A stretch of 64,000 nt of DNA from Haloarcula hispanica ATCC 33960 (GTDB lineage: Archaea; Halobacteriota; Halobacteria; Halobacteriales; Haloarculaceae), in assembly GCF_000223905.1 (NCBI RefSeq), contig NC_015948.1:1302001-1366000 (forward strand). The letters are read 5' to 3'. The notes beneath the pieces were generated by a model. That model was not told the DNA's origin, made no database searches, and saw only the letters and a list, made by a program, of their open reading frames with translations. Both the position numbers and the translations under genes were made by a program. Each line of letters begins with the position of its first letter. Position 1 is the first letter of the stretch. Positions 1-63,577 of the stretch are shown in pieces.

Positions 1-519
1 AATGGTGAGTGCGCCGGCTTCCTGCGCGGCCTGTGCGACGACCGGGGCCGCGCCGGTGCCGGTGCCGCCGCCGAGACCTGCGGTGACGAACACCATGTCT
101 GAGCCGTCGATAGACTGCTGGATGTCCTCGATGTCCTCCTGGGCGGCCTCCTCGCCGATTTTCGGGACCGAACCCGCGCCGCGGCCGCCGGTGCGCTTGC
201 GGCCGATGAGAATCTTGGTGTCGGCGGCCACCTCGTCGGCGAGGTGCTGTGCGTCGGTGTTTGCGGCGACGAGTTTGGCCCCGTGGATGCCCTCCTCCAT
301 CATCCGGGTGACCGTGTTCCCGCCAGCACCGCCACAGCCGACGACCGTGATCTTCGTTTCCAGGTCCTTGACGACGCTTGCCAGTTCCTCGTCGGACATC
401 GTCCCGGACGTGGACATGTCTTGAGACGGCGTCGATGTCGTTTCGTCGACAGTTCCGCCAGCCGCGTCCTCCCCGTCTTGTTCTGCCTCGTCGATAGCGT
501 CGTCAATTATCGAATCCAT
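1..519 (-). CDS. ftsZ: Cell division protein FtsZ, N-terminal 173 residues (truncated by window edge)
   Basis: The first 173 residues of an FtsZ tubulin-type GTPase are visible; the gene runs off the left edge. After an acidic, poorly conserved leader of about 50 residues comes the nucleotide-binding glycine loop ([10 protein letters not shown], residues 59-68), and the tubulin signature GGGTGTG is at residues 150-156. The long acidic leader is usual in haloarchaeal FtsZ1. FtsZ polymerises at mid-cell to organise division; haloarchaea normally carry two paralogues, and which one this is cannot be settled from a fragment, though the long leader favours FtsZ1. The ATG at 519 is the only good start before the conserved core. 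A GGGGG stretch lies about 8 to 12 nt upstream of it. Confidence 0.96.
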
Positions 520-564
520 AATTTAAAACCCCCTTGCAGACGAACAGTTATTAGTTTTCCCCCT

Positions 565-585
565 ACGTCTGACGCACGTCTGACG
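565..585. promoter_or_regulatory. Tandem 10-bp direct repeat upstream of ftsZ
   Basis: The 10-mer ACGTCTGACG occurs twice, at 565-574 and 576-585, giving an 11-bp phasing (about one helix turn). The pair lies 46-66 bp upstream of the ftsZ start, beside a TATA-like stretch read on the minus strand. Two direct half-sites on one helix face suggest a regulator site; the regulator is unknown. Confidence 0.35.
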
Positions 586-622
586 TGTTGAGTCATAGTT
601 TTACCGGCTGACGCGCCAGTGT

Positions 623-1981
623 TCACAGCGTATATCGACGTATACGCTCGCGCTGGAACCGCTCCGGGTCAATCTCTTCGCCGTCGATTTCGACGGATTG
701 GCCCGAGGCGAGTTTCCCGAACTTGGGCCCTTCGGGGATACCGGCCGTTCGTGCGAGGTCCGGGTCGAACGCCGTCTCCCGGGCGACCAGTTCGTCCGCG
801 GTCCAGTCGACGCTGTCGAAGCGCCGTTCGAGGATTTCGACCAGCGGTTCGACGACCGCTTCTATTTCTGTCGCCGCCGGACAGACAATCGGTCCGGTGA
901 GGACAGTCCCGTTTTGCTCGGTCGCGTACGCGATGGACTGGCGTTCGATAGTCTCACGCAGTGCCTCGCTATCGACGCCGCGCACGTCGGAAATAAGCTC
1001 GTTCGGGAGGTCGATTACGGTCCATTCCCCGTCGTACCCGGACGCAAGCTCTCCGAACCTGAGACCATCGTCGACCGGCCGGACAGCGTCTTCCAGCGTC
1101 TCGACGAGGCCCAGGTCGACACCGGTCGTCTCCCGAACGAACGTCTCACTGACGACGCGGTAGCCCAGCGACTCGATGGCGGCCGTGAGGTCCGGCCGGT
1201 CGCCCTCCATGAGAGCGTAGTCGGCCGCGCTGGCACGGAAGGCGCGGTCGAGCACTGTGTCGCGCTCCGCGTCGCTGACGGCCCACTCCGCCAGCGCGTC
1301 CAACGACCAGTTGGCGGCGATGTGGCCGACCGCCCAGTCCGTCTCACGAACAACTCGCTCGAACCGCGGGGCGTAGTGGCCGCCGCCGACCCCGAGGAGG
1401 TGGCGGCGCGTCCCGTTCTCACGCGGCCTGTCAGCCGGTTCGTCGGCGAGGTCCAGTATCGCTCTGGCAGCGGCCTCGGCGGCGTCGGGGTCCTCCCACT
1501 GTGGCTCCGCACTGCCGACCTCGACAAACATCGACGGGACACCGACTGCTGTCGGGCCGTGGTGCGTACACTCCATCCCGACTTCGTAGTCCGGCGGAGC
1601 GTGGCGCTGGAGTGCCGACACCACGGCCTTGTGAGCCCCGGGACAGGCGCGGGCGAACTGCCCGTCTTCGCCGCCGTACTCCGCGACACCGAAGTTTCCG
1701 GTGTGGTGGGCTGTCAGGAGCTCGTCCGTCTCGCCGGCGTGTTTTGAGGCGAACACCAGCAGGTCCGGGTCGTCGAACGCTGCCGCGACGTTTTCGATGT
1801 CCAGATGTAACGCCTCGAACTCGCGGAGTTCCACGCTGTCAATCTGGTACACCGTACCGCCGCCTTCGTCGTCGGGCCGCGTTTCGTCGATGCTCGTTTC
1901 CCAGTCCCGCAATGAGCGCAGGTGCTCTCCGATGTGCATCGATGCCGCGTCGGCGTGTGAGACAACGATTCCGAGCATCAA
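623..1981 (-). CDS. dtdA: D-aminoacyl-tRNA deacylase, archaeal type
   Basis: This 452-residue protein matches the archaeal/plant GEK1-type D-aminoacyl-tRNA deacylase, which frees tRNA mischarged with D-amino acids in the cytosol. The N-terminal part contains the family's conserved stretch with TAHHTGNFG (about residues 90-98) and ECTHHGPTAVGVPSMFVEVGS (about 137-157), and the middle part has GGGHYAPRF (about 199-207); these His residues are the likely Zn ligands. The C-terminal 150 residues form the extra region seen in haloarchaeal members. Its start ATG at 1981 overlaps the stop of the upstream cation exchanger, so the two are probably co-transcribed. Confidence 0.93.
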   Translation of the reverse strand: MMLGIVVSHADAASMHIGEHLRSLRDWETSIDETRPDDEGGGTVYQIDSVELREFEALHLDIENVAAAFDDPDLLVFASKHAGETDELLTAHHTGNFGVAEYGGEDGQFARACPGAHKAVVSALQRHAPPDYEVGMECTHHGPTAVGVPSMFVEVGSAEPQWEDPDAAEAAARAILDLADEPADRPRENGTRRHLLGVGGGHYAPRFERVVRETDWAVGHIAANWSLDALAEWAVSDAERDTVLDRAFRASAADYALMEGDRPDLTAAIESLGYRVVSETFVRETTGVDLGLVETLEDAVRPVDDGLRFGELASGYDGEWTVIDLPNELISDVRGVDSEALRETIERQSIAYATEQNGTVLTGPIVCPAATEIEAVVEPLVEILERRFDSVDWTADELVARETAFDPDLARTAGIPEGPKFGKLASGQSVEIDGEEIDPERFQRERIRRYTL

Positions 1982-3363
1982 TCGGCGTTCTCCAGATGGA
2001 CCGGTTCACGACCCACCGCGGACCGGACGGCGTCACCGGCCAGCCCAAGCAGGTGTTTCAGCGCTTCGCGGCGCTGGACGAACAGTCCGACCCCGAGGAG
2101 GACGTACAGCCCTGTATACGCCAGCAGAAGGTCGTGACTCGATATCGGCAGAGCGAGAAGGTCCCTGATGATGGCGAACTCCAGAACCACCTGCGAGATG
2201 AACAGCGCGAACAGCCCGATTGCTTCCCGGATACTGATCTCGAAGTTGACCAGAATGGCGAGCGCAAAGAAGGACTGGGCCGCTGTAATCCAGATCTCCG
2301 CGCCCTGTCTGGCGTCGAACGGCAGGACGCCGTACCCGCCGAGTGCGATGGAGTACACCACTGCGATGGTCCCGATGAGCAGCGTCCACTGATTGAGTTT
2401 CGAGGAAATGAGGGCGTTGAACCCCGCCGTCGAGCGGGCCTTGTTGACCAGCACGGCGACGACAATGAGCTCAGGTGACTCACTGGCCAGCGGGGCGACC
2501 CACTGGATCATGAAGAACTCGGGAATCCCGTTCGCGACACCGATCTCTTCGAGACCGTGGGCGAACGGCTCAACCGCGGTGAAAATCATTGCGCCGGAGT
2601 AGCCAAACAACGCCAAGACGACGAGTGGCCGCCACGGCAGCGACCACTCCTGGAAGTACTTTGGGACGCCGACGGTGTGCTCGCTGTGTTCGATATCGGA
2701 CTTGAGCACGAGGCCGATGTACGCGACGTAGAGGCCCACCAGAAACAGCGTATCGAAGATACCGATACCGCCGCCGAGAGGGACAAGAAACGCCCACAGC
2801 GTCGCCAGAAAGAGGAAGGAGATCTCGGTTGCGATGTCGGTGTCCAGCTGGACGGCGTCTTTCAGGAAGCCGTCGCGTTTCGTGACTGCGGGGTCCCGTG
2901 TCTTTGCGGCGCGCCAGACGGTGAACACGGCGATACCCGCCCAGCCGATACCGATGAGGATGCGGTTCGCGCCGGTCATGTTCGCAATCGCGAGGTTCGC
3001 GTCGTGACAGGCGCGAGCGAGCCCCCCGCTTGCGGACTCGATTTCTGCCGCCGTGAACTGGCGACAGGCCTCCGTCGTCGCCCCACCAGCCCCGGCGTTC
3101 CAGGCGTACAGCGCGTCAACGGCGTACTCGGGAGCCACGGCGAGAATGGCGAGGACGGCGATAGCGAACGCCCTCGGTACGTCTTTCTCGGCGGTTTCAG
3201 CGCCCCAGGCCAAGAGGAACGACGCCCCGAGGACGGCGAGCCCACTGACCGCGACGGTGGTCACGTTCCCGACCTCAATGCCGGAGATAAATAGGTAAAT
3301 CCAGCCGACAGTCAGGGCCAGCGCGACTGCGACTTGCATCAGTGGATGGCGAAAACGACTCAC
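1978..3363 (-). CDS. CaCA-family Na+/Ca2+ (or H+/Ca2+) exchanger-like membrane protein
   Basis: A polytopic protein with about ten hydrophobic segments and the two inverted alpha repeats of the cation/calcium antiporter family: APEYAVDALYAWNAG in the first half and PLASESPELIVVAVLVNKA in the second, each with the acidic residue that binds the cation. An unusually long hydrophilic stretch separates TM segments after the first repeat. It probably exports Ca2+ in exchange for Na+ or H+. The chosen start is the GTG at 3363, which gives a short basic N-terminus before TM1; the ATG at 3339 is an alternative, and an extension to 3447 would run close to aroE and lacks similarity. Overlaps dtdA by 4 bp. 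Confidence 0.85.
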   Translation of the reverse strand: MSRFRHPLMQVAVALALTVGWIYLFISGIEVGNVTTVAVSGLAVLGASFLLAWGAETAEKDVPRAFAIAVLAILAVAPEYAVDALYAWNAGAGGATTEACRQFTAAEIESASGGLARACHDANLAIANMTGANRILIGIGWAGIAVFTVWRAAKTRDPAVTKRDGFLKDAVQLDTDIATEISFLFLATLWAFLVPLGGGIGIFDTLFLVGLYVAYIGLVLKSDIEHSEHTVGVPKYFQEWSLPWRPLVVLALFGYSGAMIFTAVEPFAHGLEEIGVANGIPEFFMIQWVAPLASESPELIVVAVLVNKARSTAGFNALISSKLNQWTLLIGTIAVVYSIALGGYGVLPFDARQGAEIWITAAQSFFALAILVNFEISIREAIGLFALFISQVVLEFAIIRDLLALPISSHDLLLAYTGLYVLLGVGLFVQRREALKHLLGLAGDAVRSAVGREPVHLENAD

Positions 3364-3472
3364 TGTCGGAAGTGTGGCTGGGTCTGGCTGAAAAGCTTGC
3401 GAAAGTGTCGGCTGCAGACCGTGCTTCCCACAGAGCGTGGCGTTCATACGACCGGGGCGCGCTGGCGTTGGT

Positions 3473-4270
3473 ATGGACGTTTACGGACTCATCGGGAACC
3501 CGGTCGGGCACTCGCTGTCGCCGCCGATGCACGAGGCGGGCTACGAGGCACTGGGACTTGACGCGCGCTACGTCACGTTCGAACCGTCGGCTGACGCCGG
3601 TGCCGAAGCCGTCGAAGCGGCGGAGACGCTCGGAATCGACGGCCTCAACGTTACCATCCCGTTCAAGCAGGACGTACTCGACGCCGTCGACCCCGCGCCG
3701 CTCGCCGAGCGCATCGGCGCGGTCAACACCATTGATTTCGCGGGTGAGACGCCGACGGGCTACAACACCGACGCGGTCGGTGCGGTCCGAGCGCTGGACC
3801 ACCACGACGTGTCGCTGTCGGGTACGGCGGTCGTCGTTGGGGCCGGCGGTGCGGGGCGAGCGGCCGCGTTCGGTCTCGCCGACGAGGGGCTGTCGGTGCG
3901 GATCGCGAACCGGACCGAGTCTAAAGCCGACGCGCTCGCCGATGAAGTCCCGGACGCCTCCGGCCACGGGCTCGATTCGCTCTCCGACCTGCTCGCAAAC
4001 GCCGACATCCTCGTCAACTGCACCAGCGTCGGCATGGAGGAGGACAAGACGCCGGTCCCCGCCGACGCGTTACACAGCGACCTCGCGGTGCTCGATGCGG
4101 TGTACACGCCAATCGAGACCCGTCTGCTACAGGACGCGGCGGCCGCGGGCGCAACGACCGTTGACGGCGCGTGGATGCTCCTGTATCAGGGGGTTGAAGC
4201 GTTTGAACGCTGGACTGGCGAGGACGCACCTGTAGACAGGATGAACGGCCGATTGCGCGAACACTTGTAA
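3473..4270 (+). CDS. aroE: Shikimate dehydrogenase
   Basis: AroE reduces 3-dehydroshikimate to shikimate with NADPH. The 265-residue protein has the substrate-binding start [14 protein letters not shown] (residues 4-17), the catalytic Lys in [10 protein letters not shown], and the NADP-binding loop [11 protein letters not shown] followed by ANRTESKA, where Arg and Thr favour NADP. The C-terminal [11 protein letters not shown] is also typical. The start at 3473 places the first strand properly; an in-frame upstream ATG at 3437 adds 12 unconserved residues. Divergent from the exchanger gene. The later steps aroK and aroQ lie at 41.8-43.0 kb. Confidence 0.97.
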
Positions 4271-4320
4271 CGGAGCGGTCACCAGCAAGAGATTTGTGTT
4301 GGGGATAAATACGTTCATGT

Positions 4321-4905
4321 ATGGGTCTGCTTCAGAAATTGAAATCTGCCCTCGGGCTTGACGGGACTGGGTCATCCACGTCGGGAACCAATCGCGACGT
4401 GGACGTGACTGTCGAGCGAGAGCCCTCTACTGAAGACGAAGACGCTGTGAAGGGGACGAACACCGCGACGACTACCGAGACCCACACATCCGATACCGCG
4501 GACGGGGCCGGGACTGAATCAGGGGATGGGAGTGCAACATCTGCTCAGACAGACGAGTCGGAGACTACTGAGTCACCGACTACCGACGACGAATCGACAT
4601 CTGCGACCGATGCTTCTCCAGCAGGGTCCGAGCAAGAACCAGTGGTCGACGACGAAGCCAGCGACTCGGAAGCCACCGCTGACGAAGAACCGGCCGAGGC
4701 TGATGCCGAGACTGAGGACGAGGAAAGTACTGCCCCAGTCACGGAAATAAAGGGTATCGGTCCCGCCTACGCCGACCGACTCGCCGATATCGGTATCGAG
4801 ACGGTGGGCGAACTGGCCGCTGCGGATGCAGCGGACATCGCCGCAGACACCGACCTCTCAGAGAGCCGTGTTTCGGGCTGGATCGAGCGGGCCGAAGACT
4901 TCTGA
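4321..4905 (+). CDS. Helix-hairpin-helix domain protein with long acidic linker
   Basis: A 194-residue protein in three parts: a short amphipathic N-terminus (about 1-15), a disordered linker of about 120 residues made almost only of D, E, S, T and A, and a C-terminal helix-hairpin-helix domain (about 142-194) with IKGIGPAYADRLADIGIETV, similar to the HhH units used for non-specific DNA binding or protein contact. Haloarchaea encode several such tethered HhH proteins of unknown role. It might contact DNA or act as an adaptor. It lies just upstream of the pabB-type gene but with its own 70-bp gap. Confidence 0.8.
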   Translation: MGLLQKLKSALGLDGTGSSTSGTNRDVDVTVEREPSTEDEDAVKGTNTATTTETHTSDTADGAGTESGDGSATSAQTDESETTESPTTDDESTSATDASPAGSEQEPVVDDEASDSEATADEEPAEADAETEDEESTAPVTEIKGIGPAYADRLADIGIETVGELAAADAADIAADTDLSESRVSGWIERAEDF

Positions 4906-4975
4906 AACCGTTGACGTTCCGTCTTTTTGCGCCGAACCGCAAGGGAATTAGTCGCCGCACTGTTTTCGTTCGGTA

Positions 4976-6445
4976 ATGCAATCGGTCGAAACCGACCGGA
5001 CCACGTTCACCGACCTTGCGGCCGACGCGCATCCAGCGGCGCGCGTCCCTGTCGAGGTTCGAGTGGACGTCGATGACCCGTTTCTCGCCTATCGCCGGGC
5101 GCGCGACGAAACTGGCGGCGTGTATCTGGCGACGACCGGCGGCCAGTCGGGGTGGGGTTACTTCGGGACCGCTCCGGCGGACTTCCGCGAGGTCGACCCC
5201 CGAGCTGGCGGGACCCTCGCCGCACTGACTGAGTTTCTCGACGGCGAGCGGCTGGTCCGTGGTGACTGCGACGTGCCGTATCCCTGCGGAGCCGTTGGAT
5301 GGCTCTCCTACGACGTGGCGCGGGAACTGGAGTCACTGCCCGACAGCGCCGATGCCGACCGCGCGCTCCCAAACCTGCAGGTGGCCCGCTACGACCGCTT
5401 CGCCGCTTGGGAGGAACCCCGCGGTGAGTCGGTGACGCTGCGCGTGACAGCCTGCCCGCGGGTCGACGACTTTGAAACGCCCGAACTGGCCTACGAGTTC
5501 GGCAAGCAACACGCTCTGGACCTGGCCCGGGCGGCCGTGCAGGGTGACCCCGCCGTCGGGGACCCGCCGGTCGAGGCCGACGAAGCCACGTTCGAGAGCG
5601 ACTGCACGCCCGAGGCCTTCGCTGACCGAGTCCAAACGGTCAAGCAGTACATCCGCGACGGCGACACGTTTCAGGCGAACGTCTCACAGCGTCTCCGCGC
5701 ACCCGCCGCAGTCCATCCCGTCGAGGCGTTCGACGCGCTTCGAACTGTGAACCCCGCACCGTACTCTGCCCTGCTTGAGTTCCCTGGCGTTGACCTCGTC
5801 AGCGCCAGCCCGGAACTCCTCTTGCACCGCGACGGCGACCGTATCGAGACCGAACCCATCGCTGGCACCCGCCCGCGGGGCGAGACGCCCGACGCTGACG
5901 ACCGACTGGAAGCGGACCTGCTCGACGACGGGAAGGAGCGGGCCGAACACGCGATGCTCGTCGATCTGGAGCGCAACGACCTGGGGAAAGTGAGCAAATT
6001 TGGGAGCGTCGAGGTGTCGGACTACCGCCGCGTTGACCGCTACTCAGAGGTGATGCACCTCGTCTCGGTCGTCGAGGGCCGACTCCGTGACGGCGCGTCC
6101 CTGCAGGAAGCCATCGCCGCGGTGTTCCCCGGCGGCACCATCACCGGCGCACCGAAACCCCGGACGATGGAGATCATCGACGAGGTTGAGGCCACGCGAC
6201 GGGGGCCGTACACCGGCTCTATCGGCCTGTTCGGCTTCGACGGCCGGGCGACGCTGAACATCGTCATCAGGACCCTGGTCCGGTACGCCGAGGAGTACCA
6301 CCTCCGCGTCGGCGCGGGCATCGTTCACGATTCGGACCCGGACAGCGAGTATCAGGAGACGCTTGACAAGGGCTGTGCGCTGGTCAACGCCGTCGACGAA
6401 GCGCTGGGGAGACGCGTCGACCTGGCGATGGAGGACCAGCAATGA
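4976..6445 (+). CDS. pabB: Aminodeoxychorismate/anthranilate synthase component I
   Basis: A 489-residue chorismate-binding enzyme. An N-terminal TrpE/PabB-type domain (about 1-200) precedes the catalytic chorismate-binding domain with [26 protein letters not shown] (294-302), [11 protein letters not shown] and GPYTGSIG. The next genes encode a glutamine amidotransferase and a class IV aminotransferase in overlapping frames, the arrangement expected for 4-aminobenzoate synthesis (PabB, PabA, PabC) in folate production. The residue that separates the families in E. coli (Lys in PIKGT of PabB, Ala in PIAGT of TrpE) is Ala here, so an anthranilate synthase activity cannot be excluded. Start at 4976 is the only well-placed ATG. 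Confidence 0.85.
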
Positions 6446-7191
6446 GCGGCTCCCGTGGTAGCGACGGCAGCGACGATAGCGACACCAACGCCGCGGGTGG
6501 CCCGACAGCGGACTCGCTGGCTCCGACCGTGCTGGTCGTCGACAACTACGACTCGTTCGCGTACAACCTCGTCCAGTACGTCGGCGAGGTGGTCCTCCGA
6601 CTCGGCGGGACTGAGGACGACGTCATCGTCCGGCGCAACGACGCCATCGACATCGAGGGCATCCGCGAACTGGACCCCGACGGCATCGTCGTCTCGCCGG
6701 GGCCAGGGACGCCCGAAGAGGCGGGCGTCTCGATGCCGATCTTCGAGGAGCTGGACTACCCGACGCTGGGCGTCTGTCTCGGTCATCAGGCGCTGTGTGC
6801 GGCCAACGGCGCGCCAGTCGGCCACGCCGAGGCGGTCGTCCACGGCAAATCGTCGTCGGTTACCCACGACGGAACAGGCGTGTTCGAAGACCTGCCGGAC
6901 CCCGTCGAGGTGGGTCGGTACCACTCGCTCGCGGTCGACCGCGAGGACCTTCCCGACGTGCTGACCGAGACGGCGTACACTGTTGGCCACGACGATGCCG
7001 ACGGAGCCACAGAGACGCCAGACTCGTCCGAACCTGCCACCGCCGACGGCACGGACGAGTCCCAGGTCGTCATGGGCGTCCGCCACAGCGACCGCCCGCA
7101 CATCGGCGTCCAGTTCCATCCCGAAAGCATTCTGACCGACCACGGCAAGACCATGATCGAGAACTTCTGCCTGCTATGCAATACCACGTAG
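6442..7191 (+). CDS. pabA: Aminodeoxychorismate/anthranilate synthase component II (glutamine amidotransferase)
   Basis: A class I glutamine amidotransferase that supplies ammonia to the component I encoded just upstream. The core starts at [19 protein letters not shown] (about residues 30-48), followed by [11 protein letters not shown], the nucleophile elbow GVCLGHQ and the catalytic HPESILT near the C-terminus. The first 28 residues are a Ser/Gly/Asp-rich extension and an acidic insert of about 40 residues lies before VMGVRHS, both common halophilic additions. Its ATG overlaps the pabB stop (ATGA) and its 3' end overlaps pabC by 16 bp, so the three are translationally coupled. Confidence 0.92.
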
Positions 7192-8048
7192 ACGGCGACC
7201 TCGTCCCCGAAGACGAGGCGACGGTGTCAGTGCGCGACCGCGGGTTCATGTACGGCGACGCGGCGTTCGAAACGCTCCGGGCCTACGGCGGCGAGCCGTT
7301 CCGGTGGGATGCCCATCGCGACCGCCTCCAGCGGACGGCCGAGACGCTGGGGTTTGCCGACGCCGTGCCTGGTGACCTCCGGGAGCGCGTCGACGAGACG
7401 CTCGCGGCCAACGACCTCGACGAGGCGTACGTCCGGCTGTCGGTCACGCGGGGCGTCCAGCCTGGGAAGCTCACGCCGGGGAGCGATGTCGACCCGACGG
7501 TCGTCGTCATCTGCAAGGGGCTCCCGAAGGGTGGGTTAGAGGGGGGACGCGTCTGGGACGAGCCGGCGTCGGTCCAGACGGTCCGGACCCGGCGGATTCC
7601 GAGCGAGGCCGTCCCGGCGGACGCGAAGACCCACAACTACCTCAACGGGATTCTCGGCCGGCTCGAACTCCGAAAGGCCGCCGCTGGCGGCGAACCAGCC
7701 GACGAGTGTCTCATCCGGGACACGGACGGGAACCTTGCAGAAGGGGCGACGAGCAACCTCTTTTTCGTCACGGACAACGGCCTCCGGACGCCGAGTACGG
7801 ATCTGGACCTACTGCCGGGGGTCACCCGCGACGTGGTAATGGACATCGCTCGCGGCGAGGATTTCCCTGTCGAGACCGGTCACTATTCGCTCGATGCCCT
7901 GCGTGACGCCGACGAGGCGTTTCTCACCAACTCGACGTGGGAGATCCGCCCCGTTTCGACCGTCGACGGTATCTCCGTGGGGAGCGGGCCGATGACGAAG
8001 CTCCTTCAGCGGCTGTTCGACGAGCGAATCGAGGAGCGGTACTACTGA
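7176..8048 (+). CDS. pabC: Class IV PLP aminotransferase, probable 4-amino-4-deoxychorismate lyase
   Basis: A 290-residue fold-type IV PLP enzyme. It shows the N-terminal SVRDRGFMYGDAAFETLR, the cofactor lysine in DAKTHNYLNGILGRL, the acidic residue of NLAEGATSNLFF and the late phosphate-binding LPGVTRDVVM. Branched-chain and D-amino-acid aminotransferases share this fold, so the lyase assignment (4-amino-4-deoxychorismate to 4-aminobenzoate plus pyruvate) rests on the pabB-pabA neighbours. The ATG at 7176 lies inside the end of pabA in another frame and begins [15 protein letters not shown], the usual start of the family. Confidence 0.86.
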   Translation: MQYHVDGDLVPEDEATVSVRDRGFMYGDAAFETLRAYGGEPFRWDAHRDRLQRTAETLGFADAVPGDLRERVDETLAANDLDEAYVRLSVTRGVQPGKLTPGSDVDPTVVVICKGLPKGGLEGGRVWDEPASVQTVRTRRIPSEAVPADAKTHNYLNGILGRLELRKAAAGGEPADECLIRDTDGNLAEGATSNLFFVTDNGLRTPSTDLDLLPGVTRDVVMDIARGEDFPVETGHYSLDALRDADEAFLTNSTWEIRPVSTVDGISVGSGPMTKLLQRLFDERIEERYY

Positions 8049-8123
8049 TCGCGCTGAAGGTAGTGGAAAGCGAGCCAGCGCGGGTCGCTGGCGTGCCAGC
8101 TTACTGGTGTCCGCGTCCGCGGT

Positions 8124-9425
8124 CTACTCGGGTGCGTAGCAGACCCAACTTGTCGCGGGAACGGTGATCTGGACCCAACTATCGCCGTTGGTCGAGATAT
8201 TGCCCGCGTTGCCGCTGTAATCATTGAGTGTCTGGTTCGTCCAGCTCGTGGGGACCCACTTGCTCCGCTGGCCGCTCGCACGGTTCAGGCCGACGAGGAG
8301 GTTCCCCTCTCGCTCGTAGACGTACAGGTCCTGGTCGACGTGGCGGGTCTGTGAGCCGCCGCTCGCGAGGTTGTTCCGGATCCAGAGGAGGTTCCGGATA
8401 TCGTCGTCGTCGACGCTGATACGGTTGCTGTACACGCGTGGATACCCCTCGTACGTGAGGATGTAGGCGTACGCGAGTTTCTCGTAGTCCGGCGGCCCGC
8501 TGTCGTGGTTTGAAACGAACGTAAACGCCTGGAACGGCGACTGATTCACCATGCCGGCGCCGTCGAGCGCCTGCATGTTGCCGTCGCTGTGGAACGCCTC
8601 CTCTTTCATCGTGTAATAGAGCGGGTAGTCGGTGACGGACATCCCCGTGTCGGCGTACCCTTGGCAGACGCCGATATCGCCGTCGAGCACCTCACCCACT
8701 GTCCAGAGATCGAGGTCGTCGGCCCACTGGTTCGCGTAGTCGGCGAAAAACGACTCGGGGACGTGTTTGGCGGCGTCCCAGCGAATACCGTCGACGCCGA
8801 GGTCCGCGTACTTCTGGACGTAGGCCTGCAACTCGCCGCGGACGTACGCGGACTCCTGTTTCAGGTCCTTCAGCCCGACGAGCCAGTCGTCCTCGACCGA
8901 TTCCGGGTTGTCGTAGTTAATGTCGTCTTTCGGGTGGAAGTCGCGTTCGCTGAACCGGGGGAGGTCCGCGAAGGTAATGCCCGGCGCGTCCCGGAAGTCG
9001 TCGTTTGCGGCCATGTGGTTGATGACCGCGTCGGCGACGACGTCGAGGTCCTGATTGTGGGCCTCCTGCACCATCGCCTCGTACTCGTCCTCTGTGCCGA
9101 ACACGCTGTTGAAATCCGTCAGGTCGACGGGCTGATAGCCAAGCGGTGGGTCGGTGACGCCGTTCTGATGGCTCCGGTCGAGGCGGCTCCGCTGGGCCGG
9201 TGGGACCTGAATCGCGTCGTAGCCCTGTTGTGCGACTGTTTCCAGCGTCGCTGTGATCTCTGTCCAGTCTGTGTGGTAGTACTGGTACACCGCGCTATCG
9301 CCGACAGCCGCGCTACTGCCGACTGAGGCGGCGGTGCCGAATACTGCGGCACCGAGCACTCCGATTCCTTTCAGAACGGTTCGCCGAGACGCCTGCTTAC
9401 TGCCGGTAATTCGGGGTCGATTCAT
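8124..9425 (-). CDS. amyH: Secreted GH13 alpha-amylase (Tat substrate)
   Basis: A 433-residue alpha-amylase hydrolysing internal alpha-1,4 bonds of starch outside the cell. The N-terminus carries a twin-arginine signal (SRRTVLKG, residues 13-20) and hydrophobic stretch ending near residue 42. GH13 regions: ADAVINHM (131-138), DGIRWDAAKH with nucleophile Asp217, GEVL with acid/base Glu245, and VSNHDS with Asp308. A short beta-rich C-terminal domain follows. The length equals that reported for AmyH of Haloarcula hispanica, and I assign the symbol on that ground. Monocistronic. Upstream AT-rich sequence (9426-9530) holds TATA-like elements for the minus strand. Confidence 0.93.
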   Translation of the reverse strand: MNRPRITGSKQASRRTVLKGIGVLGAAVFGTAASVGSSAAVGDSAVYQYYHTDWTEITATLETVAQQGYDAIQVPPAQRSRLDRSHQNGVTDPPLGYQPVDLTDFNSVFGTEDEYEAMVQEAHNQDLDVVADAVINHMAANDDFRDAPGITFADLPRFSERDFHPKDDINYDNPESVEDDWLVGLKDLKQESAYVRGELQAYVQKYADLGVDGIRWDAAKHVPESFFADYANQWADDLDLWTVGEVLDGDIGVCQGYADTGMSVTDYPLYYTMKEEAFHSDGNMQALDGAGMVNQSPFQAFTFVSNHDSGPPDYEKLAYAYILTYEGYPRVYSNRISVDDDDIRNLLWIRNNLASGGSQTRHVDQDLYVYEREGNLLVGLNRASGQRSKWVPTSWTNQTLNDYSGNAGNISTNGDSWVQITVPATSWVCYAPE

Positions 9426-9684
9426 TTGCTCTCCGAGGTATGTCTCATGTTATCTACCATGCTTTTCCGCAAAAGATGATGAGATTCTACATCACAATAA
9501 ATAGTTGGCATATATGATTTGTTACATATCGGAAGTCAATCACACCTGAACAGTAATATAGCGATGATACGGGGACTGAACCACTATCTCTACCGCGTTT
9601 CCGGCTCCCGGAAGACACACTTCGACGCTCCTATTTTATTTGTGATATATACCCGACTTTCTCACCAACCTCGAAGTAGTCCGT
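9426..9684. promoter_or_regulatory. AT-rich intergenic region upstream of amyH
   Basis: About 260 bp without a convincing gene. Read on the minus strand, an AT-rich block near 9490-9520 (containing CATATATG and CTATTTATTG) is the probable amyH promoter, leaving a leader of roughly 40-50 nt. The right half contains T-rich stretches near 9633-9660 that may end transcription of the reductase gene arriving from the right. Confidence 0.4.
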
Positions 9685-10743
9685 TCACACCACGTCTTCG
9701 CGCTCGACACCGTCGACAGCGAGAATGAGGTCGGGACCGTACGCGCCGGCGGGCGTCTGGAACCCGGCGGGCGCGTCGCCGTCGATGACCCGCTGGGTGA
9801 TTTCGACCGCCGTCGCCGCCGTGAGGTCGTAGGTGTGTGGCCCTCGCAGTCGGGACTCGACGCGGTCGCCGTCGTCAGTTCTGGCTTCGCCCCAGACGAA
9901 ACTGGACACACTTGCGCGCTCTTCAGCGTCGGGTCCCTCGGTCGTCTGCTCGATAAACCACTTGAGCGTGGCTTTCACCGGCGGGAGACCGAGTACGGGC
10001 GCGAACAGCCCCGCAAATCGCTGCTGTCGGGCCGCCGACGGCGGCATCGACATGTACACGGTCACGTTCGGTATGCCGGTGGTGTGGTACGCCGTCGACA
10101 CGTCGCCCCACGGGATCGAGACGGTGTTCATCCCATCGTGTCCCCAGCCGAAGTCTATCTCGCGCGATTCGCTCCCGACGGTCACTCGCTCTATGCGGCC
10201 GTCGCGGCGCACCGCCCCGCCTGCGTCGATGTGTTCGACCATCGTCTTCGCGGTTCCCTTCGAGACGCCCATCTCCGCGTGAAACGCCAGCGCCAGCGTG
10301 TCGGCGTCGGGCAGCCGGTCGGCGAGGTGTGCAGCGAGGCAGTCCGTCGGGACCACGTCGAAACCGACACCAGGCAGGAGCACGATCCCGGCCTCCCGTG
10401 CTTCGCTGTCCCGCTTGTGGATGGCCTCAAACACGTCGAGCTCCCCGGTGATGTCCAGGTAGTGCGTCCCGGTTCGCAGGCAGGCCTCGACCATCGGCTC
10501 CCACGTCCGGCTGAACGGGCCGGCGCAGTGGACGACGGCGTCGGCGTCGTCGAGCAGCACGTCGAGCACTTTGGGTTCATCCAGCCCGACGACTTCGGAC
10601 TCACAGCCGAGTTTGATCGCCTGCGTCGAGAGTTCGTCCCGGTTCCGGCCGGCCAGTACGGGCTCTAATCCCCGGTCGATGGCCGCCTGTGCGATGATGT
10701 TGCCGGTGTAGCCGTACGAGCCGTAAATGACGACATCTCCCAT
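9685..10743 (-). CDS. Saccharopine dehydrogenase-like NAD(P)-binding reductase
   Basis: A 352-residue protein of the saccharopine-dehydrogenase-like/trans-acting enoyl reductase family. It begins directly with a Rossmann loop, VVIYGSYGYTGNIIAQAA, followed by AGRNRDEL (NADP-type) and HCAGPFSRTWEPMVEACL, and LLPGVGFDVVPTDCLAAHLA. Family members act on polyketide or lipid double bonds or are uncharacterised; the true saccharopine-dehydrogenase activity is unlikely. The start ATG at 10743 sets the Rossmann strand at residues 3-7; an upstream ATG at 10782 adds unconserved residues. Confidence 0.82.
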   Translation of the reverse strand: MGDVVIYGSYGYTGNIIAQAAIDRGLEPVLAGRNRDELSTQAIKLGCESEVVGLDEPKVLDVLLDDADAVVHCAGPFSRTWEPMVEACLRTGTHYLDITGELDVFEAIHKRDSEAREAGIVLLPGVGFDVVPTDCLAAHLADRLPDADTLALAFHAEMGVSKGTAKTMVEHIDAGGAVRRDGRIERVTVGSESREIDFGWGHDGMNTVSIPWGDVSTAYHTTGIPNVTVYMSMPPSAARQQRFAGLFAPVLGLPPVKATLKWFIEQTTEGPDAEERASVSSFVWGEARTDDGDRVESRLRGPHTYDLTAATAVEITQRVIDGDAPAGFQTPAGAYGPDLILAVDGVEREDVV

Positions 10744-10960
10744 AGCGTCGCGTTCGCAGCGTCCCCCGATAACAGTTGACACTGAATCGACAACCTGACC
10801 AGTGACCGCTGGCTACTCACTTCACGAGAGCTTTGGCCGCGCTCTGGCCTCGCTTCTTACTGCACGGTGCCGTTTCCGTCTGAATAGCCCGTGGCGCTTC
10901 ACGCGGTTACTCGCCGGGATCGGCGGTTTGAAACGGGTTACGTCCGTACGGATGCGTAGT

Positions 10961-11377
10961 ATGGACGAGGACAGCTGTATCGTCGCGCTGGACGAGGTGC
11001 CCGCTGACGGAACCTTTCTGTTCACTGTTCGCGACGGCTTCGACACGAAGGAGGCGATTATCGTCGAGTTGTCCGACGCGGTCGTCGCGTTCGAGAACTA
11101 CTGTCCACACTGGACAGACGTCCGACTCGACAAAGGCAGTGGGGCGACTGTTCGGAATGGGGAACTGGTGTGTGAGAAACACGGGGCGACGTTCGAATCC
11201 GATTCGGGGCTGTGTAACTACGGCCCTTGCGAAGGAGCGGTTCTGGAGGAAGTTTCGATTACCACCGAGGACGACGTCGTCTACCTGACCGACGAGCGCT
11301 ACGAGTTCGAAAACCAGGGGCCGTCCGGCGACCACGACCTCTCTTCGCGCGGTCGCATCGGCTTCTCCGGGAACTGA
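10961..11377 (+). CDS. Small Rieske-type [2Fe-2S] protein
   Basis: A 138-residue cytosolic protein with a Rieske fold. Cluster ligands are visible as Cys-Pro-His in NYCPHWTDV and Cys-x2-His in VCEKHGATF, spaced as in Rieske ferredoxins and the ferredoxin parts of ring-hydroxylating or nitrite reductase systems. There is no signal peptide or membrane anchor, unlike the bc-complex Rieske protein at 26.4 kb. No oxygenase is adjacent, so its partner is unknown. The ATG at 10952 is an alternative start three codons upstream. Confidence 0.82.
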   Translation: MDEDSCIVALDEVPADGTFLFTVRDGFDTKEAIIVELSDAVVAFENYCPHWTDVRLDKGSGATVRNGELVCEKHGATFESDSGLCNYGPCEGAVLEEVSITTEDDVVYLTDERYEFENQGPSGDHDLSSRGRIGFSGN

Positions 11378-11413
11378 GCGGCTGGAATCGGCTTCTCCGG
11401 GACTCCGTACCGG

Positions 11414-16476: not shown

Positions 16477-17262
16477 ATGGGCGGCACACTCGACTACGAC
16501 GAGGCGGAAGCCCGGCAAGAGGAAGCGATATACAGCACGCCGGCGGCCGTGGCGCGACGGGATCGAGTACGGGACCTGTTCGCGCCCGAACCAGGCGACA
16601 AGGTTCTCTCTATCGGCTGTGGGCCGGGCTTTGAGCCGGCGGAGATCGGCTGGGCGGTCGGCAATGCGGGACACGTTCACGGTATCGACCGGAGCAAGGC
16701 GATGCTCGAACTCTCCCGAGCGCGCTGTGCCCCGCTACCGCAGGTGACCCTAGCACAGGGAAACGCCGATGACCTCCCAGTGGCCGACGAATCGGCTGAC
16801 GCGGCCGTTGCGGTGCAGGTGTTCGAGTACCTCGAAACAGTTGCTTCGGCTGTTTCGGAACTGGCCCGAGTTCTGCGGCCCGGCGGGACAGCTGTCGTCT
16901 GTGACGCCGACTTTTCCTCGCTGGTGTGGCGCAGCCCCAATCCCGAACGAATGGCGCGCGTTCTCGATGCCTTCGACGACCACTGCCCGCACCCGCGGCT
17001 GGGTTCCCACCTTGCCCCGCATCTTCGCGGGGCCGGACTGACGATTGACCGGGTCGAACCGAACACCATCGTCAACACCAGCCTCGACGACACCTTCGCG
17101 GCCCACCTCATGACGTTCATCGAGGACTACGCGGCCGACCACGAGGCAATCGGGCCGAGAGAGGCACAGGCCTGGGCCGATGACCTCCGAGAACAGGCGG
17201 CTCACGGGGAGACCTTTTTTAGTTTCACGCAGTACTGCTACCTCGTTCACAAGCCTGCGTAG
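16477..17262 (+). CDS. Class I SAM-dependent methyltransferase
   Basis: A 261-residue Rossmann-type methyltransferase resembling UbiE and other type 11 enzymes. Motif I is VLSIGCGPGFEPAEIG (about residues 44-59), the acidic ribose-binding residue follows in VHGIDRSKAML, and motif II/III is near AQGNADDLPVADESADAAV, then LARVLRPGGTAVVCDAD. The substrate cannot be deduced; related proteins methylate quinones, sterols or small acids. It stands alone with its own promoter. Confidence 0.85.
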   Translation: MGGTLDYDEAEARQEEAIYSTPAAVARRDRVRDLFAPEPGDKVLSIGCGPGFEPAEIGWAVGNAGHVHGIDRSKAMLELSRARCAPLPQVTLAQGNADDLPVADESADAAVAVQVFEYLETVASAVSELARVLRPGGTAVVCDADFSSLVWRSPNPERMARVLDAFDDHCPHPRLGSHLAPHLRGAGLTIDRVEPNTIVNTSLDDTFAAHLMTFIEDYAADHEAIGPREAQAWADDLREQAAHGETFFSFTQYCYLVHKPA

Positions 17263-48987: not shown

Positions 48988-49149
48988 GCGCCGAGGAACT
49001 GGCGCCGGAGCTCGTGGTGGTGCTGTCGACGCTGAAACCCCGGAGAAACTATTGCTAAACTGCGCTGTTCGAGAACCGAAGGTAGGCCTGTCGTGACACT
49101 CACAGCGCTTGCACAGACCGGCCCCGAAGAGGGATGGAAGTGACGTGTC

Positions 49150-56728: not shown

Positions 56729-57604
56729 ATGAGTAAGTCACTCGACATTTCGACCACCGAAGCCGAGCAGACAGTCACAGCAGTCATCGAGACCATCGCC
56801 GCGACGACACCGGACGTCCGCCGCGCCATCGCCGACCACCGTGGCCAGAGCAACTCCGTCAACCCCACCGGCGACGACCAGCTCGCGGCTGATCTGCGCG
56901 CCGACGAACTGTTCGAGGAGCGGGTGCTTGACATCGACGGTGTCGCCTCCTACGCCAGCGAGGAACGCGCGGACGTGAAAACGACAGACGGTCGCCTCCA
57001 CGTCGCCATGGACCCGCTCGACGGGTCGAGCAACCTCGAACCCAACAGCGGGATGGGGACGATTTTCGGCGTCTACAGCGAACAGCCGCCGACGGTCGGC
57101 ACCAATCTACTCGCCGCCGGGTTCGTCATCTACGGCCCCATCACCTCGATGGTCGTCGCCCGGGACGGCAGCGTCCGCGAGTACATCCTCGAAGACGGCG
57201 ACAAGCGGGTCGTCGACGACGACGTGACGGTTCCGGAGGACCCCACAGTGTTCGGGTTCGGCGGCGGGGTCGACTCCTGGACAGACGAGTTCGAATCGTA
57301 CGCCGAGTCGGTCCGCCACGAACTGAAACTCCGATACGGCGGAGCGATGGTCGCGGACATCAATCAGGTACTCACCTACGGCGGTATCTTCTCGTACCCC
57401 GCACTGGAGTCACGCCCCGAAGGAAAGCTCCGGGTCCAGTTCGAGGGACAGCCGATGGCCTATATCCTCGAATCGGCCGGCGGTCGGTCCTCCGACGGCG
57501 ACCAGTCGCTGCTCGAAATCGAGCCTGACGAGCTACACGAGCGGACGCCGCTGTATCTCGGGAACGACGACCTGATCGACCGGCTCGAAGCGACTATCGA
57601 CTGA
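56729..57604 (+). CDS. fbp: Fructose-1,6-bisphosphatase class I
   Basis: A 291-residue gluconeogenic enzyme. Metal and substrate motifs are DDQLAADLRADELFEE, ASEE, MDPLDGSSNLEPNSGMGTIFGVY, then LRYGGAMVADINQVLTYGGIFSYP and the late PMAYILESAGGRS. It converts fructose-1,6-bisphosphate to fructose-6-phosphate. Haloarchaea, unlike many archaea, use this class instead of the bifunctional aldolase/phosphatase. Complete. Confidence 0.95.
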   Translation: MSKSLDISTTEAEQTVTAVIETIAATTPDVRRAIADHRGQSNSVNPTGDDQLAADLRADELFEERVLDIDGVASYASEERADVKTTDGRLHVAMDPLDGSSNLEPNSGMGTIFGVYSEQPPTVGTNLLAAGFVIYGPITSMVVARDGSVREYILEDGDKRVVDDDVTVPEDPTVFGFGGGVDSWTDEFESYAESVRHELKLRYGGAMVADINQVLTYGGIFSYPALESRPEGKLRVQFEGQPMAYILESAGGRSSDGDQSLLEIEPDELHERTPLYLGNDDLIDRLEATID

Positions 57605-57620: not shown

Positions 57621-59630
57621 TCAGTAACCGAGATATATCGCCAGCGCTTTGAGAACGCCGTACAGCCCGACAGCGACGCCCAGGAGCCCGCCGAGAACGG
57701 TGCCGACGATGCCGTCGGGCCACAGCGAGAGCGGGTTCGGAATCCCGATGGACGGCAACGCGGGAATCGGCAGGCCACCGCTGCCGCCTGTCACGTTCCC
57801 GACGCGTTGCCCGTCGACCATTAGCTCACCAGTCTTGTTTGCGGGTACCGAGCGAGCAAACTCCGTCGTTCGTGTCTCACCGGCAGGGACCGTGACCGTC
57901 CGCGTCGTCAGTATCGAGGTGTTGAGCGCGACGATCACGTTGTGGTCCCCGCTCGCAGTCCCCCGGTTTTCAAGCTCGACGGCGATGACGGTTCGCTCGC
58001 CGGGGCCGAGTTCCGATGGAACTGCCGTGGCGTTCGTGACCACGATATCCGGCTGTCCGGGTTCTTCTGTCTGTGTCTCGGTCGTCTCGGGTTCGGCCGT
58101 CGACGTTTCCGAGTCGGTTGTCGCCGCCTCCGCATCCATGTCTGTCGCTGCTGTCTGTTCGACTCCGACGACGAACGTCGAGAAGCCCGGAGAGTCAGCC
58201 CGGTAGACGATGTGTGACTCGCTCCGGCCGGCAATGTCGGTCGCTAACGGCGTCCACCCGTCGTCTTTCCGGAACAGCGTCACAGCATCGGGTTCCGCGT
58301 CGACCGCCGCCAGCGCGTCACGGTCAACAGTAAACGTGAACGTCGCGTCCTCGGCCGGAACGGAGCCGTGGTCGATATCGAACCGGCTGACGCCGGTGTG
58401 CCCGGTGGCAGTCGTGAACGCTGGCGTGGGCTGGCGGGAGCGGACGGTGAGTGTGGCGGATTCGTTACGCGGGAACGACGCGGCAAGCCGCTCCAGCGTT
58501 CCGTTCTCACTGGTGACGAGTGGCCCCTCCGAGGGCCGAATCTGCTGTGTCTGGCCGGACCCGTTCACCGAGACGTTCGCCACGGTCGCGTTCGGCTGCC
58601 GCACAGTCACATTCCCGGCGGTTCCATTGCCCGTCACAGACACGACTCTGGTCACAATTTCCGTGTTCCCGAGCGGATCGGCGGCGGTCACTGTGACTTC
58701 GTGACTGCCGGGCGAGGCGAAGGCCACGGTGATGTTCTCGCCGGTCAGGATCGTATCGCTCCCCACCTGCCACCGGACCGACTCGACGCCCTGATCGTCT
58801 GTCGTCCCCGCCGCGGAGAAAGTCACCGACTCGCCGACCGTCGCGTTCTCCGGACCGGCAACGGTGACGTTCGGTGCGGAATCGTCATAGAGGAACGTCC
58901 GCTGTCGGCCAAAGGAGTTCTCGTTACCGTTCTCGTCGGTCACCGACATCAGCAGCAGCGAGTACTCACCCTCCTCCGGGAACGTGTACTTTCGTGTGTA
59001 CGTGATCGTGTTACCGGTGCGTTCGGTGAATCCCGAGATGTTGAGTGTGTCTAGCGATGGGCCGCCGACGGAGATTCGAAGCTGCTGTATCGGTTCGTGA
59101 ATCCCAACAGAGATGCGGGCGGTGGAGCTATTGACGCGGCGTACCTCGAACGACTGGTACTTCGGCACGACGGCGTCCATCCCGGTGACGGTGACCGACT
59201 CGTGGGGAAGTTCGTTCCCCGCTTCGTCGGTGATACTGGCGGTGTCACGGAGGCTGACAGTGACGTTGTCTGTGTCGACTTTTCTCTCTAGCAGCAGGGA
59301 GACGCGCACCCCGGTCCTGTTTTCGCCGGAGGCGTTGATCGATGCGACCGAGACGTTCTCCACTCGACCCGCGGTTAGCTCGAAATCCGCTGCCTGAATC
59401 GTACTCGTGTCCACCGACCCACCGTCGTCGTACAGGGACACCTCGATAGTCGTCGCGTTGCCCCGCGTCGCATTGCCCCACTCCGGCGACTCGGTGTCTT
59501 CGGCCGCGACCGTGCCAGAAGCGACTGCAATGAGCAGCGGGAACAAAAGGAATACCGCGAGAAGCAGGAGCCACCGGCGACGACGCCTGGCCGACGGCGG
59601 CGTCTCTCGGGGGTGGCCGGTGGCACTCAT
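57621..59630 (-). CDS. Sequon-rich surface glycoprotein with PKD, PGF-pre-PGF-like and CARDB-like domains
   Basis: A 669-residue secreted protein. A basic start and hydrophobic WLLLLAVFLLFPLLIAVASGTVAA give a Sec signal. Next come two beta domains, a PKD-like unit (TVAGPENATVGESVTFSAAGTTDD), a PGF-pre-PGF-like domain (VSRFDIDHGSVPAEDATFTF to DSPGFSTFVVGV), an acidic Thr/Glu linker, a CARDB-like domain (PDIVVTNATAVPSELGPGERTVIAVELENRGTASG shortened here), and a C-terminal TM. It has about twenty N-x-S/T sequons. No PGF-CTERM sorting tail is seen; anchoring is by the last TM. Confidence 0.83.
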   Translation of the reverse strand: MSATGHPRETPPSARRRRRWLLLLAVFLLFPLLIAVASGTVAAEDTESPEWGNATRGNATTIEVSLYDDGGSVDTSTIQAADFELTAGRVENVSVASINASGENRTGVRVSLLLERKVDTDNVTVSLRDTASITDEAGNELPHESVTVTGMDAVVPKYQSFEVRRVNSSTARISVGIHEPIQQLRISVGGPSLDTLNISGFTERTGNTITYTRKYTFPEEGEYSLLLMSVTDENGNENSFGRQRTFLYDDSAPNVTVAGPENATVGESVTFSAAGTTDDQGVESVRWQVGSDTILTGENITVAFASPGSHEVTVTAADPLGNTEIVTRVVSVTGNGTAGNVTVRQPNATVANVSVNGSGQTQQIRPSEGPLVTSENGTLERLAASFPRNESATLTVRSRQPTPAFTTATGHTGVSRFDIDHGSVPAEDATFTFTVDRDALAAVDAEPDAVTLFRKDDGWTPLATDIAGRSESHIVYRADSPGFSTFVVGVEQTAATDMDAEAATTDSETSTAEPETTETQTEEPGQPDIVVTNATAVPSELGPGERTVIAVELENRGTASGDHNVIVALNTSILTTRTVTVPAGETRTTEFARSVPANKTGELMVDGQRVGNVTGGSGGLPIPALPSIGIPNPLSLWPDGIVGTVLGGLLGVAVGLYGVLKALAIYLGY

Positions 59631-59737
59631 GGTACATGAGTAGTCCGGCACCCGATATCAATGGTGCGCCACCATTACGAGAGGTGATAATCGCACGCGG
59701 GGTAACTACTGTGATCCCCGGGTCCGTTGGGTGTGGT

Positions 59738-61500
59738 ATGAAAGTGCATATCGCGGCCGAGGCCACGCGCGACGAGGCGTCGGCCATCGCGGCCGCCGTC
59801 GCCGAACACACCGGCCGAACTGTGGAAGTGTACGTCGGCGACGATGAAACCCCGACGTTAGTCCGCGAGGTGACCGATGAAGATGGGGCCGAAGATACAG
59901 CCGTGGACGGCGATTCGGCGGACGCTGCACCGACGGAACGAGAGAAACGCCTCCGTGAAGAGATCGCCGACATCGAACGTGGCGGGCCGCAGAAGTACCG
60001 CGACCGCCTCACCGAGCAGGGGAAGCTGTTCGTCCGCGACCGACTCGAACTCTGGTTCGGCGACGATGGCCTGGACTTCGAGGACGGCCGGTTCGCGAAC
60101 TTCGACTCGTGGCATCCCAGCAGTCCCGACGTGGACGACGAGGACGACCGGCTGCCGGCTGACGGACTCATCACCGGCGCGGGGACCTTCGAGGGCAGAC
60201 AGGTACACGTCGCCGCCAACGACTTCACCGTCAAGGCGGGATCAATCGCTCGCCACGGCGTCGAGAAGTTCCTCCGACTGCAAGAGCGCGGGCTGAAGAG
60301 CGGACAGCCGTTACTGTATCTGGTCGATTCCTCGGGCGGCCGTATCGACCAGCAACGAGGCTTCTTCGCCAACCGCGAAGGGATCGGGAAGTTCTACTAC
60401 AACCACTCGCTGCTATCTGGCGCGATTCCACAGATATGCGTCCTATACGGCCCGTGTATCGCTGGCGCGGCCTACACGCCGGTGTTCGCCGACTTCACCG
60501 TCATGGTCCGTGGCATGAGCGCACTGGCTATCGCATCCCCCCGAATGGTCGAGATGGTCACTGGCGAGGACATCGACCTCGAAACGCTCGGCGGGCCGGA
60601 CCTGCACGCCCGTCACTCCGGCAGCGCGGATCTGGTCGCCGACGACGAGGACCACGCCCGCGAGCTCGTGGCGCAACTCTCACGTATCTGCCCGATAACG
60701 CTGACGAGAAACCGCCACGGACCGACGGGACCGCGCCGGCAGTTGACCCTGCGGGCCTCGACTCGGTCATCCCCGCAGAACCGAACAAAGGCTACGATAT
60801 GCACCGAGTTATCGAACACATCGTCGACGCCGACTCCTTCTTCGAACTGCAGTCGGAGTACGGGGCCGAAATTCTGACTGGATTCGCCAGAGTCGACGGC
60901 CGGCCCGTCGGTATCGTCGCCAACCAGCCGAGCCAGCGGGCCGGCGCGATATTCCCTGATTCGGCCCGCAAAGCGGCCGGCTTCGTCTGGACCTGTGACG
61001 CCTACAACATCCCACTGCTGTACCTCTGTGACACGCCGGGATTCATGGCTGGCTCCTCCGTCGAAAAAGAGGGCATCCTCGAAGCCGGCAAGCGAATGAT
61101 TTACGCCACCTCACAGGCCACCGTTCCGAAGCAGTGCGTCGTCGTCCGGAAGGCCTACGGTGCGGGCATTTACGCCATGTCAGGCCCCGCCTACGACCCA
61201 GAAACGACACTCGCGCTCCCGGGCAGCGAAATCGCGATTATGGGCCCCGAAGCCGCAATAAACGCGGTGTACGCGAACAAACTGGACGCAATCGGCGACC
61301 CGGAAGAGCGGGCCGAGCGCGAGCAGGAGCTACGCGAGGCGTACCGCGAAGGCATCGACGTCCACCGGATGGCGAGCGAAGTCGTCATCGACGAGATCGT
61401 TCCGCCGGGTGACCTCCGAGACGAAACCGTTGCCCGGTTTGACCTGTACGAGGATGTCGAAATGGACCGGCCCGAGAAGAAACACGGGACGATTCTCTGA
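59738..61500 (+). pseudogene. Acyl-CoA carboxylase beta (carboxyltransferase) subunit broken by a frameshift
   Basis: Two halves of one carboxyltransferase. The first frame covers 59738 to about 60679, with the QEQGKLFVRDRL-like start (TEQGKLFVRDRLELWF), LYLVDSSGGRIDQQ, YGPCIAGAAYTPVFADF and LGGPDLHARHSGSADLVADD. The second frame, from about 60680 to 61500, continues with LTYLPDNADEKPP, GIVANQPSQRAGAIF, CDTPGFMAGSSVEKEGI and AYGAGIYAMSG. Joining requires one extra base near 60677-60681 and yields about 587 residues, the usual length. It would carboxylate acetyl-, propionyl- or methylcrotonyl-CoA with a biotin partner. Confidence 0.9.
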
Positions 61501-61628
61501 CTGTATTCGCGGCGGCCCATACACCCGTGCTTCCTGGGAGTAGACAGCCCCTACCCCATCCGTTTCAGTAGTAAACACTGTGTATTTAATACATTGGGTG
61601 AAAACAGGAAAACAGACCACGTGGGGGC

Positions 61629-62320: not shown

Positions 62321-63577
62321 ATGTCTCCAGAGGTAAACCCGTTTGAGAGTTTACAGGAGCAGATCGACGACGCGTCGGACTATCTCGAATATTCGACCGA
62401 CGTGCTCGAACGGCTGAAACACCCCGAGCGAGTGCTGGAGACGAACCTCTCCGTGGAGATGGACGACGGCTCCGTCGAGGTGTTTCGAGCCTATCGCTCA
62501 CAGTTCAACGGCGACCGAGGGCCGTACAAGGGCGGAATCCGCTATCACCCGCAGGTCACACGCGACGAGGTCAAGGCGCTGTCAGGCTGGATGGTGTACA
62601 AGTGCGCCGCCGTTAACATCCCCTACGGCGGCGGGAAAGGCGGTATCGAGATCGACCCGCGCCAGTACTCGGCCGACGAGATAGAGCGGATAACGCGGTC
62701 GTTCGCGAAGGAACTTCGCCCGATCATCGGCGAGGACCGGGACATCCCCGCGCCCGATGTCAACACCGGACAGCGCGAGATGAACTGGATCAAAGACACA
62801 TACGAGACGCTGGAGAACACCACCGAGCCCGGCGTCATCACCGGCAAGGCCCCGGAGTCGGGCGGCAGTGCGGGCCGCGTCGAGGCGACGGGTCGTTCCG
62901 TGATGCTCACCGCACGCGAAGCGTTCGACTATCTCGGCAAGGACATCGAGGACGCAACCGTGGCCGTGCAGGGCTACGGGAACGCCGGCTCCGTCGCGGC
63001 GAAGCTCATCGAGGACTTGGGCGCGAACATTGTCGCAGTGTCCGACTCCTCCGGTGCCGTCTACAACTCCGACGGACTCGACGCACGCGACGCGAAGGCG
63101 TTCAAAAGCGAGACCGGGTCGCTAGCCGGCTACGAGGGCGCGACGGAAGAGCTGACGAACGAGGAGCTGTTGACGATGGACGTGGATCTGCTCGTTCCGG
63201 CGGCGCTCGAAAACGCCATCGACGGCGACCTCGCACGCGACGTACAGGCCGACATCGTCGTGGAGGCGGCAAACGGCCCGCTGACACCGAACGCGGACGA
63301 CGTATTCACGGAGCGCGACGTGGCCGTGTTCCCTGATATCCTCGCCAACGCCGGCGGCGTCACGGTGTCGTACTTCGAATGGGTCCAGAACCGCCAGCGG
63401 TTCTACTGGTCCGAAGAGCGGGTCAACGACGAACTGGAGACCATCATTACGAACGCGTTTGACGACCTCGTCGAGACCTACGAGGAGACCGGCGCGCCGA
63501 ACTTCCGGACGGCGATGTACGTCGTCGCCATCCAGCGCGTCGTCGCTGCCGCAGAGGAAGGCGGTATCTGGCCCTGA
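62321..63577 (+). CDS. gdhA: Glutamate dehydrogenase
   Basis: A 418-residue hexameric Glu/Leu/Phe/Val dehydrogenase interconverting 2-oxoglutarate and glutamate. It shows [30 protein letters not shown] (with catalytic Lys), [15 protein letters not shown], the NAD(P) loop [27 protein letters not shown] and [13 protein letters not shown]. Haloarchaea carry several gdh paralogues; coenzyme choice is not determined. Complete. Confidence 0.95.

Follow-up and report, generated by a model that had tools for sequence, protein, structure and literature searches.

The acyl-CoA carboxylase beta-subunit gene on the chromosome of Haloarcula hispanica ATCC 33960 (hereafter A; positions 59738–61500 on the + strand of the 64,000-nucleotide stretch of DNA analyzed here, which we call the window) is one base short of its orthologues at the boundary of two carboxyltransferase domains, and no single open frame of A holds a complete Carboxyl_trans domain. 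In our judgment, the lesion is probably a real and recent loss-of-function mutation in the native chromosomal copy of a biotin-dependent family, which would have become dispensable after a related carboxylase, B, arrived. The frameshift is ordinary in kind; of more interest is the repeated loss of A across the genus.

The 5′ part of A (59738–60679, +), i.e., an N-terminal extension followed by the carboxyltransferase N domain, stays in frame for 314 residues through ...ELVAQL, and the last homologous codon of this frame is CTC at 60677–60679 (residue 314). The count is taken from the ATG at 59738, where the protein start matches the M-[KR]-V of in-genus orthologues; an in-frame ATG is also present upstream at 59636. 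Past the lesion (60677–60682, +), the first frame runs through a tail of 65 codons (60680–60877, +) that has no homology to the family and ends at a TGA (60875–60877), and the homologous continuation LTYLPDN..., which encodes the carboxyltransferase C domain (60679–61500, +), sits in the −1 frame up to a stop at 61498–61500. The original prediction had placed a frameshift at 60670–60690, with 314 residues in one frame and the rest in the next, unrelated sequence after ELVAQLS, and family-like sequence from LTYLPDN. All of this agrees with the break that we find and with the Pfam Carboxyl_trans match (PF01039), which is split between profile positions 4–228 in the first frame (E-value of 4.8e-50) and 217–493 in the second (E-value of 1.8e-78). 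The single missing base that it postulated was likewise borne out by the alignment to Haloarcula amylolytica (G001), in which one column is absent at 60680; its guess at the particular base, within a CTCT, finds no support in the relatives. The site lacks any homopolymer of at least three bases.

The C frame is open from 60163 and thus overlaps the first frame over a long stretch, and an ATG at 60436 opens a mechanical ORF in it; within 60437–60900, this frame has just two start codons, GTG 60454 and ATG 60799. At the other end of the gene, ~92 residues precede the Carboxyl_trans match (window 59738–60013) and are conserved at the start of A orthologues. A search of this N-terminal region gave no Pfam match; it could conceivably be a fused small subunit.

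We compared A with the same gene in relatives, as had been suggested, at 97 loci: 17 in-genus orthologues (L007–L023, with L023 partial) and the best 80 of 382 genome-contig relatives from a scan, which are family relatives and only in part strict orthologues, with several organisms present in both sets. Both halves lie in the same frame in 17/17 in-genus orthologues, of which 16 are also stop-free over the compared stretch, and in each of these best 80 genome-contig loci; the only loci that differ are copies of the window itself (L004–L006). Thus, among the 97 compared loci, the break is private to the H. hispanica lineage. A search of viral contigs for the exact sequence of the lesion gave no match, and the plasmid collection yielded copies at 60–80% identity only. 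The A copy of H. rara SHR3 (L021, the same as L042) is interrupted within its N domain by an in-frame TAG, at about position 5665 of L042. This is a second, independent broken A in the genus, in a genome without a detected B, and its ratio of nonsynonymous to synonymous changes (N/S) is 20/32 (p = 5e-5), or 19/32 when the stop itself is removed (p = 1e-4).

The distribution of the two genes was analyzed in 32 Haloarcula genomes. A is found in 18 and B in 12, four have neither (G006, G008, G014, and the incomplete G028), and H. hispanica and H. amylolytica are the only two in which A and B occur together. G026 is also incomplete, and its A is cut by the end of a contig. A is intact in 1 of the 12 genomes with B versus 15 of the 20 without (p = 0.0006, for genomes that are non-independent and with G026 counted as intact). 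In 10/10 other B-bearing congeners, A is missing from its syntenic slot and the flanks are conserved. The slot is anchored on the left by a fructose-1,6-bisphosphatase-like gene (FBPase; 56729–57604, +) and on the right by a Glu/Leu/Phe/Val dehydrogenase-family gene (GDH; 62321–63577, +), and the FBPase-to-GDH interval measures 2.83–3.01 kb in the 10 B-bearing, A-less genomes versus 4.72 kb in the window. In the A-less slot, the left flank matches up to 59,691–59,754, and the right flank picks up at 61,473–61,540. A scar of the deletion is visible in G027 (L200, about 4355–4425) as short remnants of both A ends. The gene adjoining A, for a putative exported or membrane protein (57621–59651, −), is kept in the congeners that have lost A; it has accumulated 14 nonsynonymous and 12 synonymous changes on the H. 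hispanica branch.

A FastTree tree of the FBPase and GDH codons, built for 30 of the 32 genomes (G026 and G028 were left out), unites all 12 B genomes in a single clade (0.999), places the H. hispanica/H. amylolytica pair inside it (0.999), and sets G027 apart from the other nine with weak support (0.52–0.53). Our reading of this topology is that B was probably gained once in the clade and that A was lost in it at least twice, a frameshift accounting for the loss in H. hispanica and a deletion for that in the A-less genomes, or three times if G027 is separate.

The paralogue B (L036) lies intact on the secondary replicon (G000:C1, 366461–367996, −). It belongs to the same family as A, with protein identities of 74% and 76% to the two halves, but differs from A in being unbroken, in having its own biotin carboxylase next to it, and in falling on another, Natrialbaceae-like branch. 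This second biotin carboxylase, encoded at most about 1 kb away from B, occurs in all 12 B genomes and in no others of the 32. H. hispanica has two biotin carboxylase genes, both outside the 64-kb window, and a biotin carboxylase partner for the beta subunit is therefore encoded in the genome. The B cluster (L126 4261–16931, G000:C1) comprises genes for an amidohydrolase, an HpcH/HpaI-type lyase, a methyltransferase, B, a biotin carboxylase-BCCP, an acyl-CoA dehydrogenase, and an AMP-binding ligase, together with UbiD-like genes; these surroundings suggest a possible role in the breakdown of branched-chain acids such as leucine.

We placed A and B in a tree of 101 rows using a quick method with SH-aLRT support; of the 80 genome-contig loci, L039–L042, L045, L062, L068, L071, L079, and L087 were omitted as duplicates of in-genus rows, and L092 represents the B of G001. 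B falls among Natrialbaceae and Halorientalis (98–99, starred), apart from A, which forms a clade of its own (100); the rows nearest to A are Halosimplex and two unclassified Halobacteriales, with a support of 84, under the starred level. Relatives 73–76% identical to A are also carried by plasmids of Natrinema, Halorientalis, and Haloarcula, and one such plasmid relative, L096, is close to B in the tree. Judged from these sequence relationships, B is laterally acquired, and the case for A as the native copy draws on where A occurs in the genus and on its fixed slot no less than on the tree.

The course of events that we favor can be rationalized as follows. The lineage would have gained carboxylase B, with its own biotin carboxylase, on a secondary replicon, making A dispensable, and one base would have been lost from A at the boundary of its two carboxyltransferase domains; translation of the broken gene would then yield only the N domain with a 65-residue foreign tail. 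In this class of enzymes, active sites arise where the N domain of one subunit meets another subunit's C domain, so the product of A should be dead. The loss of function, the covering of A's role by B, and the permissive effect of B on the loss are all inferred. The original prediction offered a recent inactivation or a sequencing error; these alternatives stand, and the new evidence tips the choice towards inactivation, namely the intact acquired paralogue, the repeated loss of A in congeners, the unusual residues of H. hispanica, and a lesion without a homopolymer in a sequence with few frameshifts elsewhere. Against this, the link to B depends on a single gain of B, H. amylolytica holds both A and B intact, and H. 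rara broke A without B, while four more genomes have neither.

That the ATCC 33960 reference contains a sequencing or assembly error, and that A is intact in living cells, is the most serious alternative, possible in our estimation but somewhat doubtful. It would account for a lone one-base gap in a gene that otherwise looks constrained (dN/dS of 0.06–0.08 against H. amylolytica in both halves) and for the intact A that the closest relative, H. amylolytica, keeps beside B, and it sits well with an overall N/S excess that falls short of significance. Along the same lines, the lab derivative N601 is reported to differ from the published type-strain sequence (PMC3953195); the differences listed are larger events, and the A gene is unnamed among them (PMC3953195). 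The error would, however, have had to strike a site without a homopolymer of at least three bases, in a gene lost by ten congeners and stop-broken in another, on a branch with unusual residues, and to produce the one clear mid-gene frameshift that H. hispanica shows among the 272 ORFs compared.

This last count comes from looking up 272 H. amylolytica ORFs (97,358 codons) in 444 kb of the H. hispanica chromosome. Out-of-frame stretches of at least 40 bp were found in five of them, and A is the sole ORF of the five that is built from two long conserved pieces meeting mid-gene. Three others (ORFs 77774, 223984, and 416607, named by position in the H. amylolytica stretch) diverge close to the 5′ end. 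In the remaining one, ORF 24240, the tail differs, with the H. hispanica tail closer to the outgroup G030, so that H. amylolytica is probably the one that changed, with the caveat that the match in G030 is also split over two frames. In the reverse direction, 7 of 271 H. hispanica ORFs were flagged in H. amylolytica, one being the C half of A. For another 11 ORFs, the homologous frame of H. hispanica contained in-frame stops, which in 9 cases fall inside the first 60 codons; the reverse direction gave 7 such ORFs. The idea of an error-ridden assembly was rejected after this follow-up of the five flagged ORFs, which left A alone as a clear mid-gene break. Elsewhere in the window (17149–17262), H. 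hispanica and H. amylolytica differ by one base close to the 3′ end of ORF 16477–17262, which alters the C terminus, and the H. hispanica tail of this ORF is the closer of the two to the outgroup G030.

Selection on the broken copy was assessed by comparison with H. amylolytica, giving dN/dS values of 0.077 for the N half (250 codons) and 0.060 for the C half (270 codons). Both halves still look constrained, which suggests that the lesion is either very young or absent from the living strain. When changes over the same codons were polarized, the H. hispanica branch showed 17 synonymous and 7 nonsynonymous changes, and the other branch 14 and 2. A general rise in nonsynonymous changes on the H. 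hispanica branch of A was tested in three ways and did not reach significance in any. The N/S ratio of 7/17 compares with 170/635 in 43 other window genes (p = 0.32); against single orthologue pairs, p was 0.06–0.28 in four pairs, a fifth (L007–L010) being unusable because its N half was out of register; and in a set of 420 codons and 98 rows, i.e., the tree rows minus the partial A_G026 and two outgroups, the ratio was 6/15 versus 172/978 (p = 0.12).

The H. hispanica branch of A does carry unusual residues. Four of the six nonsynonymous changes in this last set lead to residues absent from the other 97 rows, and 15 changes on the same branch are synonymous. Set against 25 unique-residue and 978 synonymous changes on 27 control branches, this 4-to-15 ratio gives a Fisher p of 0.0015, a post hoc value from a test chosen after the changes had been seen. 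Restricting the controls to the 15 of A type gives p = 0.0045, and removing one conservative change gives p = 0.011; one of the four changes is V to I. Another of the unique changes hits a lysine present in 96/97 rows and in 80/80 genome-contig loci (the best 80 of 382).

Two further explanations, a two-piece enzyme and recoding, are unlikely. According to the first, the loss of one base was the initial step of a gene fission, producing a carboxyltransferase made of two polypeptides (AccD-like and AccA-like) that still assembles, for which bacterial acetyl-CoA carboxylase, with its separate AccD and AccA subunits, is the natural comparison. The break does coincide with the domain boundary (profile 4–228/217–493), the C half alone weakly matches AccA-type chains, and both halves are still constrained. 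Yet there is no C-frame start near the join, as GTG 60454 lies a long way upstream and a protein begun at ATG 60799 would lack about 40 residues, the N half bears its 65-residue foreign tail, and the split is seen in none of the compared relatives, which together make a fission highly improbable. Programmed −1 frameshifting into a full-length protein, although mechanically possible given the long frame overlap and a C frame open from 60163, is the least credible explanation and was rejected, since, just as the original prediction had argued in calling it unlikely, the region holds no slippery heptamer (no X XXY YYZ in 60561–60806), and the conserved shift that would have signified recoding was looked for and seen in 0/97 compared loci.

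A real inactivation of A remains the reading that we prefer. In the model haloarchaeon H. hispanica, propionyl-CoA carboxylation is a step of the methylaspartate cycle (PMC5592240). The species has four carboxyltransferase genes (five matches, two of which are the halves of A), and a break in one of them, whether it exists in the reference strain itself or in the reference file only, bears on annotation, metabolic models, and the design of knock-outs. A real inactivation would also be a clean case of a native metabolic gene repeatedly lost once a secondary replicon had brought in a related carboxylase. No description of the A frameshift was evident in the literature searched.

Comparison of the whole window with H. 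amylolytica yielded two additional observations. Positions 2–11402 are 92.3% identical, versus 95–96% in the other long window matches, for which either faster genes or an exchanged segment may be responsible. Moreover, H. amylolytica is longer by about 2.1–2.2 kb at each of two places, near window 43631 and at 49022–49147.

With respect to known systems, both domains of A are homologous to acyl-CoA carboxylase beta (by sequence, the propionyl-CoA carboxylase beta type, PDB 1vrg and 3iav), and its C half matches solved propionyl-CoA carboxylase beta chains; A departs from this family in that its domain is split over two frames by the loss of one base. The recent frameshift pseudogene and xenologous gene displacement are general notions, and A resembles both in having a broken native copy, an intact acquired relative, and a native copy that is gone in sister species. 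Nothing about A is different in kind from these, and the repeated loss of the native gene is what makes the case notable.
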